A model generated the notes under the pieces. It did no database searches, had not been told where the DNA came from, and saw nothing but the letters and a program-made list of their open reading frames with translations. Made by a program: the position numbers and the translations under genes. This document shows positions 65 through 32,189 of a DNA stretch of 33,321 nt, in pieces. This stretch comes from Deltaproteobacteria bacterium. Lineage in GTDB: Bacteria > Desulfobacterota > Desulfobaccia > Desulfobaccales > 0-14-0-80-60-11. The stretch spans positions 1-33,321 of the forward strand of contig JAKAKP010000025.1 in assembly GCA_021813445.1 (NCBI GenBank), written 5' to 3'. How positions within the stretch are numbered: the first letter of the stretch is position 1; each line of letters begins with the position of its first letter.

Positions 65-3000
65 ATGATCGCGAAAATCATCGAAGCCTGCGTGCGCAAC
101 CGGGTCCTGGTGCTGATCGTCTGGCTCCTGGTCACGGCCTGGGGCATCTACTGCGCCTACAACATCCCGGTGGACGCCATCCCCGACCTCTCCGACGTGC
201 AGGTGATCATCCGCACCCCCTTCCCGGAACAGGCCCCCCAGATCGTGGAAGACCAGGTGACCTACCCTTTGACCACGGCCATGCTGGCGGTGCCCCGGGC
301 CAAGGTGGTGCGGGGCTACTCCCAGTACGGCCTCTCCCTGGTCTACGTCATCTTTGAGGACGGCACCGATATCTACTGGGCCCGCTCCCGGGTCCTGGAG
401 TATCTCAACTACGTGCAGGGCAAGCTGCCCCGGCAGGTGACCCCGGCTTTGGGGCCGGACGCCACCGGGGTGGGCTGGGTCTTCGAGTACGCCCTGGAAG
501 ACCCCACCGGCAAGACCGACCTGGCCCAGCTCCGCAGCATCCAGGACTGGTACCTGCGCTACCAGCTGCAGACGGTGCCGGGCGTGGCCGAAGTGGCCAG
601 TGTCGGCGGTTTCGTCAAACAGTACCAGGTAGTGGTGGACCCCAACCAGCTCGCGGCCTACAGGCTGCCGCTGTCCAAGATCAAGGAGGCCATCCAGCGC
701 TCCAACCAGGACACCGGCGGCGCGGTGGTGGAGCAGGCCGAGACCGAATTCATGGTGCGGGCCCTGGGCTATATCAAGAATAAAGAGGACGTGGCCAACA
801 TCGTGGTGGGCGCGGACGCCCAGGGCACGCCCATCCTCATCAAAGACGTGGCCCTGGTGCGCCTGGGCCCGGAACTGCGCCGGGGCCTGACCGAAGCCAA
901 CGGCACCGGGGAGGTGGTGGGCGGCATCGTGGTGATGCGCTTCGGGGAAAACGCCCGCACCGTCATCGAAGGCGTCAAGCAGAAGCTGGAGGACCTGAAA
1001 TCGGGTCTGCCCCCCGGCGTGGTCATCAAAACGGCTTATGACCGCTCCGGCCTGATCCAGCGGGCCATCAACACCCTGAAACGGACGATCACCGAAGAAA
1101 TGGTGATCGTCTCCCTGGTCTGTTTTATCTTTTTGCTGCACGTGCGCAGCGCCATCGTTGCCATCATCAGCCTGCCCCTGGGCGTGCTGATCTCGCTGAT
1201 TTTACAGTATTATTTCAATATCAACGCCAATATCCTCAGCCTCGCGGGCATTGCCATCGCCATCGGCGCCATGGTGGACGCGTCGGTGGTCATGGTGGAG
1301 AACGCCCACAAGCACATCGAGCATGCGCCCTCGGACGCGCCCCGGGAGCCCCTGATTCTCGACGCGGCCAAGGAGGTGGGGCCGTCGCTCTTCTTCGCCC
1401 TGTTGGTGCTCACCGTCTCCTTTCTGCCCATCTTCGCGCTGGGCGCGGAAACGGGCCGCCTCTTCCGGCCGCTCGCCTTTACCAAGACCTTTGCCATGGG
1501 CGGTGCGGCCATTCTGGCCATCACCCTCATTCCCATCCTCATGCTCTATTTCATCCGGGGCAAGATCATCCCGGATATGGAAAACCCCATAGCCCGGGCC
1601 ACCATGGTAGTCTATAAGCCCGTGGTCCGGGGCATCCTGCGCTTCCCCAAGACCGCCATCCTGCTGGCGGTGCTGGCCATGGCCGCCACCATCTATCCCT
1701 TCAGCCACCTGGGCTCGGAATTCATGCCGCCGCTGGATGAAGGCGACCTGCTCTACATGCCCACCACCATGCCCGGGATCTCCATCACCGAGGCGAAAAA
1801 CATCCTGCAGCAGACCGACCGCATCATCCGCACCTTCCCGGAGGTGGAGTATGTCTTCGGCAAGGCCGGCCGGGCCGACACCGCCACCGACCCCGCGCCG
1901 CTGTCCATGATAGAGACCACCATCCGCCTCAAACCCCGGGAGCAGTGGCGCAAGGTGCCCACCTGGTACTCCTCCTGGGCGCCAGGGTGGCTGCAGGCCG
2001 TGTTTCGCCATTTCTCTTCCGACCGGATCACCACCGAGGAGCTGATCCGGGAAATGGACCAGGCCGTGAAATTTCCGGGACTGGCCAATTCCTGGGGCTA
2101 TCCCATCAAGATCCGCATCGACATGCTCTCCACCGGCATCAAGACCCCGGTGGGCCTTAAATTCCTGGGCCCGGACCTGAACGTCCTCAACCGCCTGGCC
2201 GTGGACGCGGAAGCCATCCTGAAAAAGGTGCCCGGCACCACCAGCGCCTTTGCCGAGCGGGTCACCGGCGGCTATTATCTCGATTTCGACATCAAGCGCC
2301 GGGAGGCGGCCCGTTACGGCCTCACCGTGGGCGACGTCCAGGACGTCATCGCCAGCGCCATGGGCGGCGAGAACGTCACCCAGACGGTGGAAGGCCTGGA
2401 GCGCTTCCCCGTGAACCTGCGCTACTTTCAGGATTACCGGCAGAATCCCCCGGCCCTGCGCCGCATCTTGATCCCCACCCCCAACCGCGCCCAGGTCCCC
2501 CTGGACCAGGTGGCGGACATCCGGGTCCACCAGGGCCCGGATATGATCAAGAGCGAAGGCTCCCGGCGCTCCGCCTGGGTCTACGTGGACATCGCCAATA
2601 TCGACGTGGGCACCTACATCAAGCGGGCCCAGGAGGCCCTGGCCGCGCATCTCAAGATGCCCTCGGGCTATTCCCTGGTCTGGAGCGGCCAGTACGAATA
2701 CATGGAGGCCGCGGCCAAGCGCCTGAAGGTCATCATCCCCATCACCCTGGTCCTGGTCTTTCTGCTCCTTTATCTCAATACCCACTCCCTCATCAAGGTG
2801 GGCATCGTCATGCTGGCCGTGCCCTTCTCCCTGCTGGGCGCCATCTGGCTCCTGTACCTGCTGGGCTATCACCTGAGCGTCGGCGTGGTGGTGGGCATGC
2901 TGGCCCTGGCGGGCCTGGACGCGGAAACCGGGGTCTTGATGCTCCTCTACCTGGATATTGCCCACGACCAGTGGCGGCAAGAGGGCCGCCTCCGCACCGA

Positions 3001-3247
3001 GTCCGACCTGCATGACGCCATCGAGCACGGCGCGGTGATGCGGGTGCGGCCCAAGCACATGACCATCCTGGCCAACTTGCTCGGCCTGCTGCCCATCATG
3101 TGGGCCACCGGCACCGGCGCGGAAGTGGCCAAACGCATCGCCGCCCCCATGGTCGGCGGCGTGGCCACCTCCTACCTCCTGGAACTCCTCATCTACCCCG
3201 CCATCTACCTCCTCTGGAAACGACACTCAGACTTTAAAGGGAAATAG
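65..3247 (+). CDS. cusA: CusA-type Cu(I)/Ag(I) efflux RND inner-membrane pump
   Basis: Heavy-metal efflux RND permease: proton-driven export of monovalent copper or silver through a tripartite CusCBA-type complex spanning the envelope. The 1060 residues match the usual family length (about 1050). The TM4 motif GAMVDASVVMVENAHK carries the proton-relay Asp at residue 405, the same number as in E. coli CusA. The three methionines of the CusA metal site are all recognisable in context: M565 (LLYMPTT), M615 (APLSMIETT) and M687 (IDMLSTGIKTPVG). This favours Cu/Ag over the divalent-cation CzcA group. About 20 extra residues, including a Trp-rich stretch, lie between M615 and M687. The ATG has only a poor ribosome-binding site. 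The adaptor and outer-membrane partners are not in the window and probably lie upstream. Family is certain; substrate is inferred from the methionines. Confidence 0.95.
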   Translation: MIAKIIEACVRNRVLVLIVWLLVTAWGIYCAYNIPVDAIPDLSDVQVIIRTPFPEQAPQIVEDQVTYPLTTAMLAVPRAKVVRGYSQYGLSLVYVIFEDGTDIYWARSRVLEYLNYVQGKLPRQVTPALGPDATGVGWVFEYALEDPTGKTDLAQLRSIQDWYLRYQLQTVPGVAEVASVGGFVKQYQVVVDPNQLAAYRLPLSKIKEAIQRSNQDTGGAVVEQAETEFMVRALGYIKNKEDVANIVVGADAQGTPILIKDVALVRLGPELRRGLTEANGTGEVVGGIVVMRFGENARTVIEGVKQKLEDLKSGLPPGVVIKTAYDRSGLIQRAINTLKRTITEEMVIVSLVCFIFLLHVRSAIVAIISLPLGVLISLILQYYFNINANILSLAGIAIAIGAMVDASVVMVENAHKHIEHAPSDAPREPLILDAAKEVGPSLFFALLVLTVSFLPIFALGAETGRLFRPLAFTKTFAMGGAAILAITLIPILMLYFIRGKIIPDMENPIARATMVVYKPVVRGILRFPKTAILLAVLAMAATIYPFSHLGSEFMPPLDEGDLLYMPTTMPGISITEAKNILQQTDRIIRTFPEVEYVFGKAGRADTATDPAPLSMIETTIRLKPREQWRKVPTWYSSWAPGWLQAVFRHFSSDRITTEELIREMDQAVKFPGLANSWGYPIKIRIDMLSTGIKTPVGLKFLGPDLNVLNRLAVDAEAILKKVPGTTSAFAERVTGGYYLDFDIKRREAARYGLTVGDVQDVIASAMGGENVTQTVEGLERFPVNLRYFQDYRQNPPALRRILIPTPNRAQVPLDQVADIRVHQGPDMIKSEGSRRSAWVYVDIANIDVGTYIKRAQEALAAHLKMPSGYSLVWSGQYEYMEAAAKRLKVIIPITLVLVFLLLYLNTHSLIKVGIVMLAVPFSLLGAIWLLYLLGYHLSVGVVVGMLALAGLDAETGVLMLLYLDIAHDQWRQEGRLRTESDLHDAIEHGAVMRVRPKHMTILANLLGLLPIMWATGTGAEVAKRIAAPMVGGVATSYLLELLIYPAIYLLWKRHSDFKGK

Positions 3248-3262
3248 GTCTCTAACATTAAA

Positions 3263-3325
3263 CGGCTTTTATCGGCGTGCAAAGGCGGTTAAATATTAGC
3301 CGCGGATGCACGCCGATAAAAGCCG
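3263..3325. repeat. Palindromic intergenic repeat, copy 1 (REP-like)
   Basis: Two perfect 19-bp arms (3263-3281 and 3307-3325) enclose a 25-bp loop that is itself nearly palindromic. The 20-bp core at 3284-3303 occurs again, exactly but on the opposite strand, at 16171-16190, with similar flanks. It lies just after cusA and before the small lipoprotein gene. It could act as a transcription or mRNA-stability barrier; it has no T-run of a classic terminator. Confidence 0.85.
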
Positions 3326-3378
3326 GTCCTCTTGCATTGTGGCTCAAAGAAGCTAACTTTAGAATAAAGGGAGGAGAG

Positions 3379-4865: not shown

Positions 4866-7817
4866 ATGCATGACCAAGGAAAAACCAAAGACCAGCTCCT
4901 CGCGGAATTGTCGGAAATGCGTCAACGACTCGCGAATTTGGAATCCTCCGAATTAAGAATGACCAGGGAATACCTGGAAAATGTCCTGGAGAATTCTCCC
5001 GAATGCATCGGCATCGTCGATCGGCACGGCCGGCTCATTAAATGGAACCGAATGGCCGCGGAGCTTTACGGTTATAGTTTCGAAGAACTCAAAGGCAAAA
5101 AGGCCTTTGATCTCTATGTCGACCGCCGAGAACTTCATAATATGTTGCAGCGGTTACGGCAAAAAGGGGGGGTGAGAAAGTATGAAATAAATATGAAAAA
5201 GAAGGACGGCAGCATTGCTCCCTTTGAGTTATCCATCAGTTTGCTAAAGGATGATGCTAATCAGACCATCGGCAGTGTTTGTGTTTCCCGGGACTTGAGC
5301 GATATCAAAAAAGCCCTGACCACGCTGCGGGCCACAAACGAGCAGCTCAACCAGGAAATTATCGTGCGCCAGCACATCGAAGACGAATTACGGCAAACCA
5401 GGGACTGCTTGGAAAATATCTTTGAAAATTCCCCGGATGTCATCGGCATCGTGGACCGGCATGGCAGATTTGTTAAATGGAACAGGATGGCGGCAGACCT
5501 TTATGGCTACAAATTGGAGGACCTTGAGGGCGTAAGGGCTTTTGATCTTTATGATGATCCGGAGGAACTGAATAACCTGCTGACCCAACTGCGACATGAT
5601 GGAGTGGTGAAAAAATGTGAAATTAATATGAGACGCAAAGATGGCAAAATTATACCTTTCGAAATATCTATCAGTTTATTAAAAGATAGCAAAAATAATA
5701 CTACTGGCAGTGTCTGCGTGGCCCGGGATTTAACCGGCACCAAAAAGGCCCTGGCCATACTTAGAGAAACCAATGAACGCCTTAATCAAGAAATTGCCGA
5801 GCGCCAGCAGGCCGAGGCGGCCCTGCAACAGGCATATGAGCACATCGAACAGAAGGTGAAAGAACGGACCAAAGAGCTATTGCAGACCAATAAACAATTG
5901 ACCTGGGAGATAGAGGAGCGCCGCCGTATCGAGAAAGCCCTGCGTAAAAGTGAAAACAAGTACCGCACCCTGGTGGAAAACCTGCCCCAGAAAATCTTCC
6001 TCAAAGATAAAAACTCCGTTTATTCCTCCTGCAACAAAAATTATGCCCGGGATTTGGGGATCAAGCCCGAAGAAATCCGGGGCAAAACCGACTACGACTT
6101 TTTTCCGGAAACCCTGGCGGAAAAATACCGGACCGACGATAAAAGGGTTTTGGAATCCGGCAATAGCGAGGAAATAGAAGAAAAATATATCCACCAGGGA
6201 CAGGAAGTCTACATCCAAACCGTCAAAACCCCGGTGAAGGACGGCAAGGGCAAGATTATCGGCACCCTGGGGATCTTCTGGGACATCACCGCCCGCCGGC
6301 GGGCGGAAGAAGCATTTAAAACCCTGGTCCTCAACGCGCCTATCGGCCTCTTCATTGCCCAAAACGGCAGGTTCCGGCAGATCAATCCGGAATTCGAGAA
6401 AATTACCGGCTATGGGGAAGAGGAATTATTAAACGATGATTGCCTCTGCCTGGTCATTCCTGAATTTCGGGAAAAAGTCAAAGAAACTGCCATCCAGATC
6501 CTGCAGGGGAAAAGGTTTCTCCCCTTTGAATTCCAGTACCGCACCAAGGGCGGGGATATCCGTTGGGCCCTGGAAAAGGTGGCTACCACTCAATATAACG
6601 GGGAAAGGGCCACCTTGGGATATTTCATGGACATTACCGACAGCAAGCATCTGGAAGTCCAGTTTCTCCAGGCCCAAAAGATGGAGGCGGTGGGGCGGCT
6701 GGCCGGGGGCGTAGCCCACGACTTCAACAACTTGCTGACGGGCATCTTGGGTTATGGCGAGTTGTTGTTCTGGGGCCTCCCGGAGGACCACCCCCGGCGC
6801 CGTTATGTGGAAGAGATCATTAAGACCACGGAGCGGGCCGCGGCCTTGACCCGGCAACTGCTGGCCTTCGGCCGCAAACAGATCATCCAGCCCCGGATCA
6901 TCAATCTGAACGAGGTGATCTTAGGCATGGAAAAAATGCTGCGGCGCCTCCTGGGGGAAGACCTGGATCTGATTACCCTCCTGGAACCCGACTTGGGTGC
7001 AGTCAAAGCCGATCCCGGCCAGATGGACCAGGTGATCATGAACCTGGCGGTGAATGCCCGGGATGCCATGCCCCGGGGGGGTCTGCTCACCCTGAAAACG
7101 GAGAATGTCTTTCTGGACGAGGCCTATATCTGGGAGCACATGGAGGCCAAACCCGGCTCTTATGTGCTGCTGGCAGTGAGCGACAGCGGCAGCGGCATGG
7201 ACCCGGACACCAAGGCCCATATCTTTGAGCCGTTTTTCACCACCAAGGAGCCGGGCAAGGGCACGGGGCTGGGCCTGGCCACCGTCCACGGCATCATCAA
7301 ACAAAGCGGCGGCCATATCTGGGTCTACAGCGAGGCCGGCAAAGGCACCACTTTTAAGATCTACCTGCCCCGGGTGGAAGCCCAAGCCGTCTCCCTGCAG
7401 CCCCAGGCCGCGCCGGCCGCGTCCCTCCGGGGGCAGGAAACCATCCTGGTGGCGGAAGATGATGAGAAGTTGCGGGGCGCGATCTGCCAAACTTTACGTT
7501 CTTATGGCTACTCCGTGTTGGAGGCCGGGAACGGCAACGAGGCCATTTTACTCTGTGGGCAGCATCAGGGGCCGATCCATTTAGTCCTGACTGATGTAAT
7601 TATGCCCGGTATGAGCGGCGGTGAGTTGATAGAACGGCTGGCGCCTTTGAACCGGAAGATGAAGGTGCTCTTCATGTCCGGCTATACCGAGGACACCGCG
7701 GCCCTGCAAAGTCTGCTGGCGGCAGGGGTGCCCTTCTTGGAAAAACCTTTCAAGATGATGAACCTGGTGGAAAAAGTGCGGCAGGTCCTGGACACGCCGC
7801 CGACCTGGTCCCCTTGA
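4866..7817 (+). CDS. Hybrid sensor histidine kinase with four PAS domains and a C-terminal receiver
   Basis: Soluble hybrid kinase of 983 residues without obvious membrane segments. Order: short coiled coil (1-33), PAS1 (about 35-150), PAS2 (about 180-295), coiled coil (about 300-360), PAS3 (365-480), PAS4 (484-600), HisKA with phospho-acceptor H618 ([11 protein letters not shown]), HATPase with N730 and the G1 box around D773 (DSGSGM), then a receiver with acidic pocket E864-D865-D866, phospho-acceptor D910 ([12 protein letters not shown]) and K960 (EKPF). PAS1 and PAS2 are an internal tandem duplication. The start is set at ATG 4866, after GAAGGGGGGCCTGAG; upstream in-frame TTG 4776 adds 30 residues that look untranslated. 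The kinase-receiver half is closely related to the kinase at 9199. The PAS half is visibly lower in GC than the kinase half. The signal is unknown; heme or flavin binding cannot be judged by eye. Confidence 0.92.
4962..5831 (+). repeat. Tandem duplication of a 435-bp PAS unit inside the kinase gene
   Basis: The octamer ACCAGGGA at 4962 recurs at 5397, exactly 435 bp (145 codons) later. The following text stays alignable: [10 protein letters not shown] against [32 protein letters not shown] against [22 protein letters not shown] (shown in part), and the linker NEQLNQEI against NERLNQEI. Protein similarity is higher than DNA identity, so the duplication is not very recent. Confidence 0.85.
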
Positions 7818-9215: not shown

Positions 9216-10824
9216 GCCGCCGGAAAATTGGAATTCTTTGCGGGAAAAGATCATCGGCCTGGTTGAGCGTTCCCTCAGGAAGAGCTATTATCCTGAATTG
9301 CAGCAACGCCTGGCGGATTTGGAAAGATTTCGCGCCCTGTTGGATCAAAGCAATGACGGTATCTTTCTCCTGCAAGTCCCCTCCGGCCAATTTATCGACG
9401 TCAATGATTTTGCTTTTCGCCATCTCCATTACCCTCCTGAAGAACTGCGCCGGATGTCCATCTATGATTTGGTAGAAACCGCAAAGGCCGAACAAATCAA
9501 GGCCATATTTTCCCGCGGCCAGAGGGGCACCGCCGCGCCGGAGACTCTTATTACCACTCTTCGCCCCCGTTGCGGCAACGACATCCCGGTGGAGATGACG
9601 GTGCGCCTGGTGTTGTTCGCGGAGACTCTCTATGCCGTAGTGGTGGCCCGGGAGATCACCGAACGCCAGCAGCTGGAGGCGCAACTGGTGCAGGCCCAAA
9701 AGATGGAGGCCTTAGGCCGGCTGGCAGGGGGAGTGGCCCATGATTTCAACAACCTGCTCACCGCCATTCTCGGCTATGGCGAGATGCTCATGCAGGAATT
9801 GCCCGAGGATGATGGGCGGCGTCATTACGCGGCACAGATCATCAACACTGCCGAACACGCCGCGGCCTTGACCCGCCAGCTTCTGGTCTTCGGCCGCAAG
9901 CAGATCATCCAGCCCCGCATCCTCAACTTGAATGAGCTAATCTCGGGCATGGAAAAGATGCTGCGGCGTTTGCTGGGAGAAGACCTGGAGATGGTCACCC
10001 TCCTGGACCCGGCTCTGGGCGCGGTCAAAGCCGACCCCAGCCAGATGGACCAGGTGATCATGAACCTGGCGGTGAATGCCCGGGATGCCATGCCCCGGGG
10101 CGGACTGCTAACTATTGAGACGGAAAACGTCGATCTGGATGAAACCTACGCCGGGGATCACCTGGAAGTCAGCCCCGGCCCTTACGTGATGCTGGCGATG
10201 AGCGATACCGGTATCGGCATGGACCTCGCCACCCTGGACCATATCTTTGAGCCGTTCTTCACCACCAAGGAGCCGGGTAAGGGCACGGGCCTGGGTCTGT
10301 CCACGGTATTCGGCATTGTCAAGCAGAGCGGCGGCCATATCTGGGTCTACAGCGAACCCGGGAAGGGCACCACCTTCAAGGTCTACCTGCCCCGGCTGGC
10401 AGAGGGCGCCCTGCCCCTCCACCCTGCAGCGGCCCCCGCCGCCTCTTTGCACGGCAGTGAAACCATCCTGGTGGTGGAAGATGACGAGCAGTTGCGCGAC
10501 GTCATCTGCCAGACCCTGCGCAATTATGGTTATCTGGTGTTGGAGGCCCGCCATGGCAGTGAGGCAATTTTGGTCTGCGGACGCCATCGAGGGCCGATCC
10601 ACCTGGTCTTGACCGATGTGATCATGCCCGGGATGAGCGGCGGCGAATTGATAGAACGGCTGGCGCCCTTGGGCCGGAAAATAAAGGTGCTCTTTATGTC
10701 CGGCTATACCGAAGACACCGCGGTCCTGCACAGCCTCCTGGCGGCAGGGGTCCCCTTTTTGGAAAAGCCCTTCAAAATGATGAACCTGGTAACTATGGTG
10801 CGGGAAGTCCTGGACTCGCCTTAA
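9199..10824 (+). CDS. PAS hybrid sensor kinase with receiver, coupled to ercA
   Basis: 541-residue soluble hybrid kinase (ErcS'-like by context and by its N-terminus). It starts at TTG 9199 inside the end of ercA, after AGAGG, so translation is probably coupled. A basic leader ([16 protein letters not shown]) precedes one PAS domain (about 42-155, [17 protein letters not shown]), then HisKA with H181 ([11 protein letters not shown]), HATPase (DTGIGM; KGTGLGL) and a receiver with phospho-acceptor D473 ([12 protein letters not shown]) and EKPF. From [13 protein letters not shown] onward it aligns almost without gaps to the kinase at 4866, with most residues identical, including the receiver. 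It has no DNA-binding output domain, so it must signal to another regulator by phosphorelay. The signal might be an alcohol- or aldehyde-related state reported with ErcA; this is inference. Confidence 0.92.
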
Positions 10825-15944: not shown

Positions 15945-16288
15945 GCCGGACCTGCCTCCCCCGGACATGTCCCAGGACTGGCCCCGGGACGGTTAATTTT
16001 TTTCTTAAGAATTTCCTTTACTTGCCTCGTCAGAACCCTGGCCGCATCTTTGCAGAACTTCAGCCTCGGGAGCCGGAGAGCCTGGCTGCCGCAACTTCCC
16101 GACCCGGAGAGCGATTTTTATCAAGTTCGCTGCAACAAATCCTAAAGACCGCGTGTATCGGCGCGCATCGGCGGCTAATATTTAACCGCCGATAAACGCA
16201 GATGAACGCCGCTGATTCTGCCGGTTTGTTGCATGGCAATATGAATTTGGTAGTGGAGGGTCCCTCTCCGGGGTGAGGAGCCGGGGCT
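15945..16288. other. Gene-free stretch holding repeat copy 2
   Basis: 344 bp between the PfpI-like gene and the winged-helix gene. The first part is a GC-rich trailer followed by a T-rich stretch near 15992-16020 without a clear stem. The second copy of the palindromic repeat family sits at 16151-16210. After it comes ordinary sequence leading to the GAGGAG ribosome-binding site at 16275-16280. I saw no RNA gene and no convincing promoter. Confidence 0.6.
16151..16210. repeat. Palindromic intergenic repeat, copy 2 (inverted relative to copy 1)
   Basis: The core GCGGCTAATATTTAACCGCC at 16171-16190 is the exact reverse complement of 3284-3303. Flanks also align with those of copy 1 (about 18 of 22 positions on one side, about 14 of 21 on the other). 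Its own outer arms pair at about 18 of 24 positions, so the copies have diverged while keeping the palindrome. Confidence 0.85.
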
Positions 16289-18614: not shown

Positions 18615-18710
18615 CCCCTCTGCGCCCTCTGCGGTGGTTGGCGGATTGGCGGTTTAGCGGGCCGACCCGCTAAACCGCCAATCCGCTGAACCGCTGGCCA
18701 TGCAGAGGGG
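18615..18710. repeat. Large palindrome between convergent genes (possible bidirectional terminator)
   Basis: Perfect 21-bp arms at 18641-18661 and 18666-18686 around a 4-nt loop, extended by outer 9-bp arms at 18615-18623 and 18702-18710. It fills the gap between the AAA+ gene (+) and typA (-). There is no T-run on either side, so it is either a rho-assisted or mRNA-stabilising end for both transcripts, or a REP-type insertion. Confidence 0.8.
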
Positions 18711-32058: not shown

Positions 32059-32067
32059 TGGTTTTTG

Positions 32068-32164
32068 GTTTTCTGTTTCCTGTCCCGGCGGTGAGCCTGT
32101 TATTCTCCTGAATCAGGCTCACCCCGGGCCACCGGCAATGTGAGCGTCACTAGAAACAGAAAAC
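32068..32164. repeat. Nested inverted repeats between livK and livH
   Basis: Outer 12-bp arms (32068-32079 and 32153-32164) read GTTTTCTGTTTC and its exact complement. Inside them a 10-bp stem (32090-32099, 32114-32123) has a 14-nt loop. The right outer arm runs into ACAGAAAAC-type direct repeats up to the livH start. Likely a transcript-processing or attenuation structure, or an inserted palindromic element. Confidence 0.8.
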
Positions 32165-32189
32165 AGAAAACGGAAAACAGAAAACTATC

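Follow-up and report, generated by a model that had tools for sequence, protein, structure and literature searches.

The palindromic repeats of the window (the whole stretch of 33,321 nucleotides analysed here, which is contig C29 of the 4.18 Mb, 166-contig host assembly) are with high probability, about 0.85, copies of a chimeric MITE: the ends of an IS630-family insertion sequence enclose a palindromic core that comes from a separate repeat superfamily. The assignment to an IS630-type MITE follows from the homology of the arms to a complete insertion sequence, from target duplications and from empty sites. The outer arms of about 30–40 bp would represent the left and right ends of such an insertion sequence, with a 3-bp TNA duplication arising on insertion, and the copies were presumably moved in trans by an IS630-family transposase. 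The core may, less certainly, derive from an element which used a GxxExxY nuclease as its own helper. As a MITE the element is ordinary in kind, yet it is chimeric and has an unusual TNA duplication.

Repeat copies in the window and in the host genome

The features concerned are the following.

3263–3325, plus strand: central palindrome of copy 1 (repeat search, folding), with outer 19-nt arms at 3263–3281 and 3307–3325
3326–3363 (end approximate), plus strand: right transposon-arm remnant of copy 1 (arm matching against subfamily copies)
16119–16252, minus strand: copy 2, a nearly whole element of 134 bp with both arms (match to the family consensus)
16151–16211, minus strand: central palindrome of copy 2 (inverted-repeat pair with copy 1)
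65–3247, plus strand: gene for an AcrB/AcrD/AcrF family efflux protein, upstream of copy 1 (context)

An earlier sequence-only reading had proposed a dispersed palindrome family with perfect 19-bp arms in copy 1 and a 20-bp core shared, in inverse orientation, with copy 2. The outer 19-nt arms of copy 1 are indeed exact reverse complements, and the 20-nt core at 3284–3303 has its exact inverted match at 16171–16190. The alignment of about 60 bp, which that reading had also noted, holds as such (61 nt, 82%), but the whole unit is about 140 bp long, not 60. By repeat search, copy 1 has 30-nt arms that are 87% complementary and 3 nt apart. Folding of the copy 1 strand with DNA parameters gave z = −8.5, a value equalled by none of 200 shuffles; for copy 2, z was −1.4 and −1.8, one value per strand. 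The fold of copy 1, together with the number of family places in the host (see below), argues against a chance repeat.

Copy 1 has lost its left transposon arm, which is unrecognisable (end scores 14/28 on the left and 22/28 on the right; 95% point of the background, 16). Its right flank matches the right arms of the subfamily copies L059 and L053 (0/2000 shuffles each), and does not match the arm of the main family consensus (166/2000 shuffles as good). Copy 2 carries an 8-nt deletion in one arm, and its flanks, TTT and GTG, show no target duplication.

Other repeats were observed in the window. A palindrome at 18641–18686 has perfect 21-nt arms and a 4-nt loop and folds with z = −8.4; flanked by a convergent AAA-ATPase ORF and a TypA/BipA-type ORF, it is perhaps a bidirectional terminator. 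An inverted repeat of AAAAC-rich units occupies 32061–32178 (87% over 23 nt); these units recall the tails (GAAAAC) that core-less elements have elsewhere in the genus. A 300-nt direct repeat of 74% identity (6629–6928 and 9651–9950) falls within two long ORFs.

Scoring of 40 of the 46 candidates gave at least 36 places in the host assembly with a match to the 150-nt consensus of the family (E ≤ 1e-5), so the notion that the window holds the only two copies is false. Two of these places, on contigs C67 and C128, have common flanks and look like one copy. The flanks of many copies align for 30–45 nt outward past the palindrome and end with TACCAAATTC... and ...GAACTTGGTA. The whole element measures 131–152 bp, with inverted ends TACCAA...TTGGTA and the palindrome at its centre.

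Target duplication was assessed on 29 rows, 23 of which reach at least 18/28 at both ends. The 3-bp flanks (TAA, TTA or TGA) are identical in 14 of the 23, compared with 103 of 506 mismatched pairings, and exact duplication is absent in the remaining 9; position by position, the three duplicated bases agree in 18/23, 18/23 and 17/23 rows. To find empty sites, the joined flanks of 10 copies were compared with the seven genomes of the genus. Six sites have a match across the junction (L030, L033, L034, L040, L042 and, over only 24 nt, L041), and for the other four (L031, L032, L035, L036) there is no junction-spanning match among the matches listed. Five candidates were aligned, of which two are exact to the base: at L033 the host reads TAA[142 bp]TAA where genome G017 has a single TAA, and L042 is matched by a second host place, L317, also with a single TAA. 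The remaining three (L030, L034, L040) fit the empty-site reading, with divergence at the junction. The L042 site itself (e.g. L316, L317) belongs to another dispersed repeat, well over 100 nt long, for which dozens of matches are listed in the host and in all six other genomes of the genus.

The copies avoid ORFs, intergenic bias being among the checks that the earlier reading had named: predicted ORFs are overlapped by more than 40 nt in 10 of 30 copies, compared with 4755 of 5295 positions drawn at random from these loci. The family is dispersed, mostly intergenic and mobile, as had been suggested, whereas its attribution to the REP kind is not borne out: the unit has transposon ends, a TNA duplication, empty sites and, in a genome of the same genus, an IS630-family counterpart.

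Perfect arms are peculiar to copy 1. Among 27 aligned host rows, copy 1 alone exceeds 15/19 outer-arm matches (19/19), the other 26 rows having at most 15/19. Its left arm has the right-arm base at all four positions where the consensus arms differ, and a T which is absent from the consensus arms is present in both of its arms. Passages in two papers report that template switching between inverted-repeat arms homogenises the arms (PMC8604942, PMC7202029). Judging from the aligned copies, copy 1 owes its perfect arms to a secondary homogenisation; they are not the state of the family. A later template switch would have copied the right arm of copy 1 onto the left, which would account for the difference between the perfect copy 1 and the imperfect copy 2.

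The IS630-family element and related elements

In genome G014 of the same genus (contig C82), MITE-type ends with TTA/TTA flanks lie 1120 bp apart around a transposase region. The left end of this element agrees with the left arm of the MITE at 25/28 positions, where the best of 10,000 shuffles reached 18; for the right end and the right arm the agreement is 23/28. Its two ORFs scored 134 and 91 bits against NF033545, the NCBIfam model of the IS630 transposase (cut-off 100). Because these ORFs are in two overlapping frames, this copy of the element may be frameshifted or dead. A parent insertion sequence would be expected to have the ends TACCAARTTC...GCAACAAA and an intact transposase. No such element with MITE ends was found in the host assembly, where the matches were inspected by eye for the end pair. 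The sequence-only reading was right in placing the helper of the family outside the window. Locus L294 of G017 has a matching end, and no transposase-like ORF was recognised there by eye. G014, G017 and G018 also contain IS630-type elements with TATAGCG ends, which were set aside as candidates.

A second abundant element of the host has TACCAAGTTG ends next to TNA, and its left end is found at 24 places in the host assembly. Of 99 matches to it, 23 fall in the opening 133 bases of a contig, where the minus strand reads TNATACCAAGTTG, which puts these ends at assembly breaks; one of the 23 (C22) is a different short element. Many host contigs (e.g. L084–L096, L098, L099 and L101–L103) terminate within copies of this IS630-type element, and the assembly is accordingly broken by it. 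The body of the element is missing from the host assembly (0 DDE_3 matches), and a relative in genome G020 consists of two pieces with IS630-type matches, each under the IS630 cut-off. We rejected this high-copy element as the direct parent of the MITE, since its agreement with the MITE arm amounts to just 9/10 over the initial 10 bases and 14/28 over the initial 28. It may act on the MITE in trans.

The core and the GxxExxY nuclease genes

The core is a palindrome of about 63 bp built from units of about 10 bp (ATCTGCGTTC...ATCGGCGGTTAA) and belongs to a wider repeat superfamily. It is separable from the arms. Eighteen of 25 loci from other genomes were examined for arms, scored against a background whose 95% point was 16 and whose maximum was 25: seven have both arms, three have one and eight have none, and all three loci of genome G018 consist of the core only. 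The same examination of five host loci gave one arm in two (one being copy 1 of the window) and none in three. Conversely, G013, G014, G016 and G018 contain elements with similar ends and TNA flanks that do not have the window-type core. In some host elements a TACCAAGTTG end is succeeded by palindromes of the GGGCGAACC or a similar type (L134 at 1299, L138 at 1145, L141 at 1298, L148 at 1338 and L135 at 1361); one end of each was read, and they are possibly further chimeric MITEs.

A search of the seven genomes of the genus with PF13366 (PDDEXK_3) gave eight matches in four genomes, two of them being pieces of one broken host gene. On contigs G013:C38 and G018:C115, the ATCTGCG/ATCGGCG core of the window family stands on both sides of the GxxExxY gene. 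The left arm contains an ATG in G018, and the stop codon overlaps TAATCTGCG in both genomes. The remaining loci of the genus, including the two host genes, show sister unit repeats by eye, e.g. CTCACGCAAAGACGC, CACCGCAGAGACGC, CACCACGGAGACAC and ACCACAAAGGCAC. In the host, neither of the two GxxExxY genes has flanks of the ATCTGCG type; both carry a sister family. Host contigs C4 and C142 also show sister unit repeats (CTCTGTG and CGCAAAGACGC types; L005 at 2916, L021 at 1279), and the PF13366 search matched no GxxExxY gene there.

In a wider scan of named genomes we took the best 80 of 587 GxxExxY loci and required an inverted-repeat score of at least 30 joining the two flanks. Inverted flanks were found at 57 of 79 of these best loci, compared with 53 of 790 mismatched pairs. 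Going by record titles, the positives include Verrucomicrobia, Bacteroidetes, Acidobacteria, Proteobacteria, Planctomycetes and Chloroflexota; two archaeal loci had flank scores of only 16 and 17. With stricter gene calls, inverted flanks occur at 46 of 68 GxxExxY genes (22 being below the threshold), at 6 of 124 neighbouring ORFs and in 50 of 680 mismatched pairs. The corresponding numbers for the G018-type subfamily within the host phylum are 13 of 27 (14 below the threshold), 1 of 14 and 19 of 270. The query for this subfamily has matches at E ≤ 1e-20 in 93 of 395 genomes of the phylum. The core was found in at least 8 of the 395 by an insensitive search, in which at most two candidates per genome were scored, and five of these eight are among the 93.

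The predicted structure of the GxxExxY protein, made from 32 sequences, has a mean pLDDT of 95.2, and the residues D, E and K are invariant across the 32. VIA-align returned three chains at Z ≥ 8, with the nuclease-fold entries 4ic1 (Z 9.5, 99 aligned residues, 3.8 Å) and 3ijm (Z 8.4, 101 residues, 3.6 Å). Holliday-junction resolvases scored Z 6–7, which may reflect only a common arrangement. A sequence search of the PDB gave one match (E 0.09), and Foldseek against the PDB gave none at E ≤ 0.001 (best 0.007). In the open-licence literature, GxxExxY is named in two papers, in passages that do not concern repeats, and no paper with the repeat strings was found.

From the arrangement of genes and repeats, the GxxExxY nuclease appears the likeliest original helper of the core, and it might cut a cruciform formed by the palindrome. 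We tentatively extend this to a general proposal, to which we give odds clearly below even. GxxExxY PD-(D/E)XK nuclease genes and their flanking unit repeats (ATCTGCG, CTCTGCG, CTTTGCG, CTCTGTG and similar) would together make up one class of mobile elements found in many phyla of bacteria: a structure-specific nuclease would spread the palindromes, which also occur as solo copies. The window repeats would be palindromes of this kind that an IS630-type MITE captured and an unrelated transposase re-amplified.

A passive link between core and GxxExxY gene, with the IS630-type MITE itself correctly identified, comes not far short of an even chance. The genes would then lie in, or have been inserted into, palindromes which were moved otherwise, or the repeats would be operator or attachment sites. 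Solo palindromes and sister repeats do occur with no GxxExxY gene nearby, and other genes are also placed between such arms, e.g. the 156-aa ORF in L197 and L196. A passive link has to face, on the other hand, the recurrence of the association across many phyla with different repeat families, and the start and stop codons which abut or fall in the repeat in G013 and G018, as suits a single co-moving unit. The ORF just mentioned (148–156 aa; L197 1921–2391, L196 946–1392) adjoins the GxxExxY gene between further repeat arms, like a row of repeat-bracketed genes; its L197 copy has no Pfam match.

In our view the link of the core to GxxExxY outweighs the MITE itself, as scattered short palindromes of unit repeats, not so far assigned to a helper, bracket a small nuclease-fold family in many phyla of bacteria. 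A causal link would offer a testable role both for the repeats and for the GxxExxY proteins.

Other explanations and comparison with known systems

That the hairpin is maintained for transcription termination or RNA stabilisation is improbable as an explanation of the family. Copy 1 does start 15 nt past the stop codon of the efflux gene and folds stably, and several copies lie between convergent ORFs, but no T-run follows the copy 1 hairpin, no Rfam family reaches the gathering score within the window, and duplications and empty sites account for the dispersal without selection. The copy 1 hairpin may nevertheless have a local role.

REP, BIME and REPIN sequences with their RAYT resemble the window family in being palindromic, dispersed and mostly intergenic, and the sequence-only reading had considered a RAYT-type (Y1) transposase as a possible helper. 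RAYT-type genes are present in all seven genomes of the genus (35 matches, five of them in the host). Of these, 30 loci were examined, and the ATCTGCG-type unit motif occurs in the flanks of about 1.5 kb at one only (L174), more than 1 kb from the gene, which speaks against such a helper. A passage in PMC3733652 describes a REP as a 20–40-bp palindrome with a GTAG or CGTC tag; neither tag is found at the ends of the 63-bp window palindrome. The window family also differs in its longer core, its transposon arms, its TNA duplication and the lack of a RAYT beside the copies. Movement of a REP/BIME family by a RAYT is therefore very improbable, despite the general likeness and the Y1-type genes available: the 131–152-bp unit has transposon ends and a TNA duplication, the unit motif is near-absent from the Y1 loci, and the tag is missing.

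The genes bracketed by the window core (G013, G018) or by sister repeats match the GxxExxY/PDDEXK_3 family (PF13366), the annotation of which describes a nuclease-superfamily protein only.

The closest comparison for the chimeric MITE is with known MITEs of IS630-family elements. Like these, the window family is short and gene-less, has IS630-family ends and a target duplication, and is present in dozens of intergenic copies. The target duplication of IS630 elements is usually TA, whereas that of the window family is the 3-bp TNA, and the interior of the window family is the palindrome of another repeat superfamily, which also occurs alone. Comparable IS630-derived MITEs are the Correia-type elements of Neisseria.
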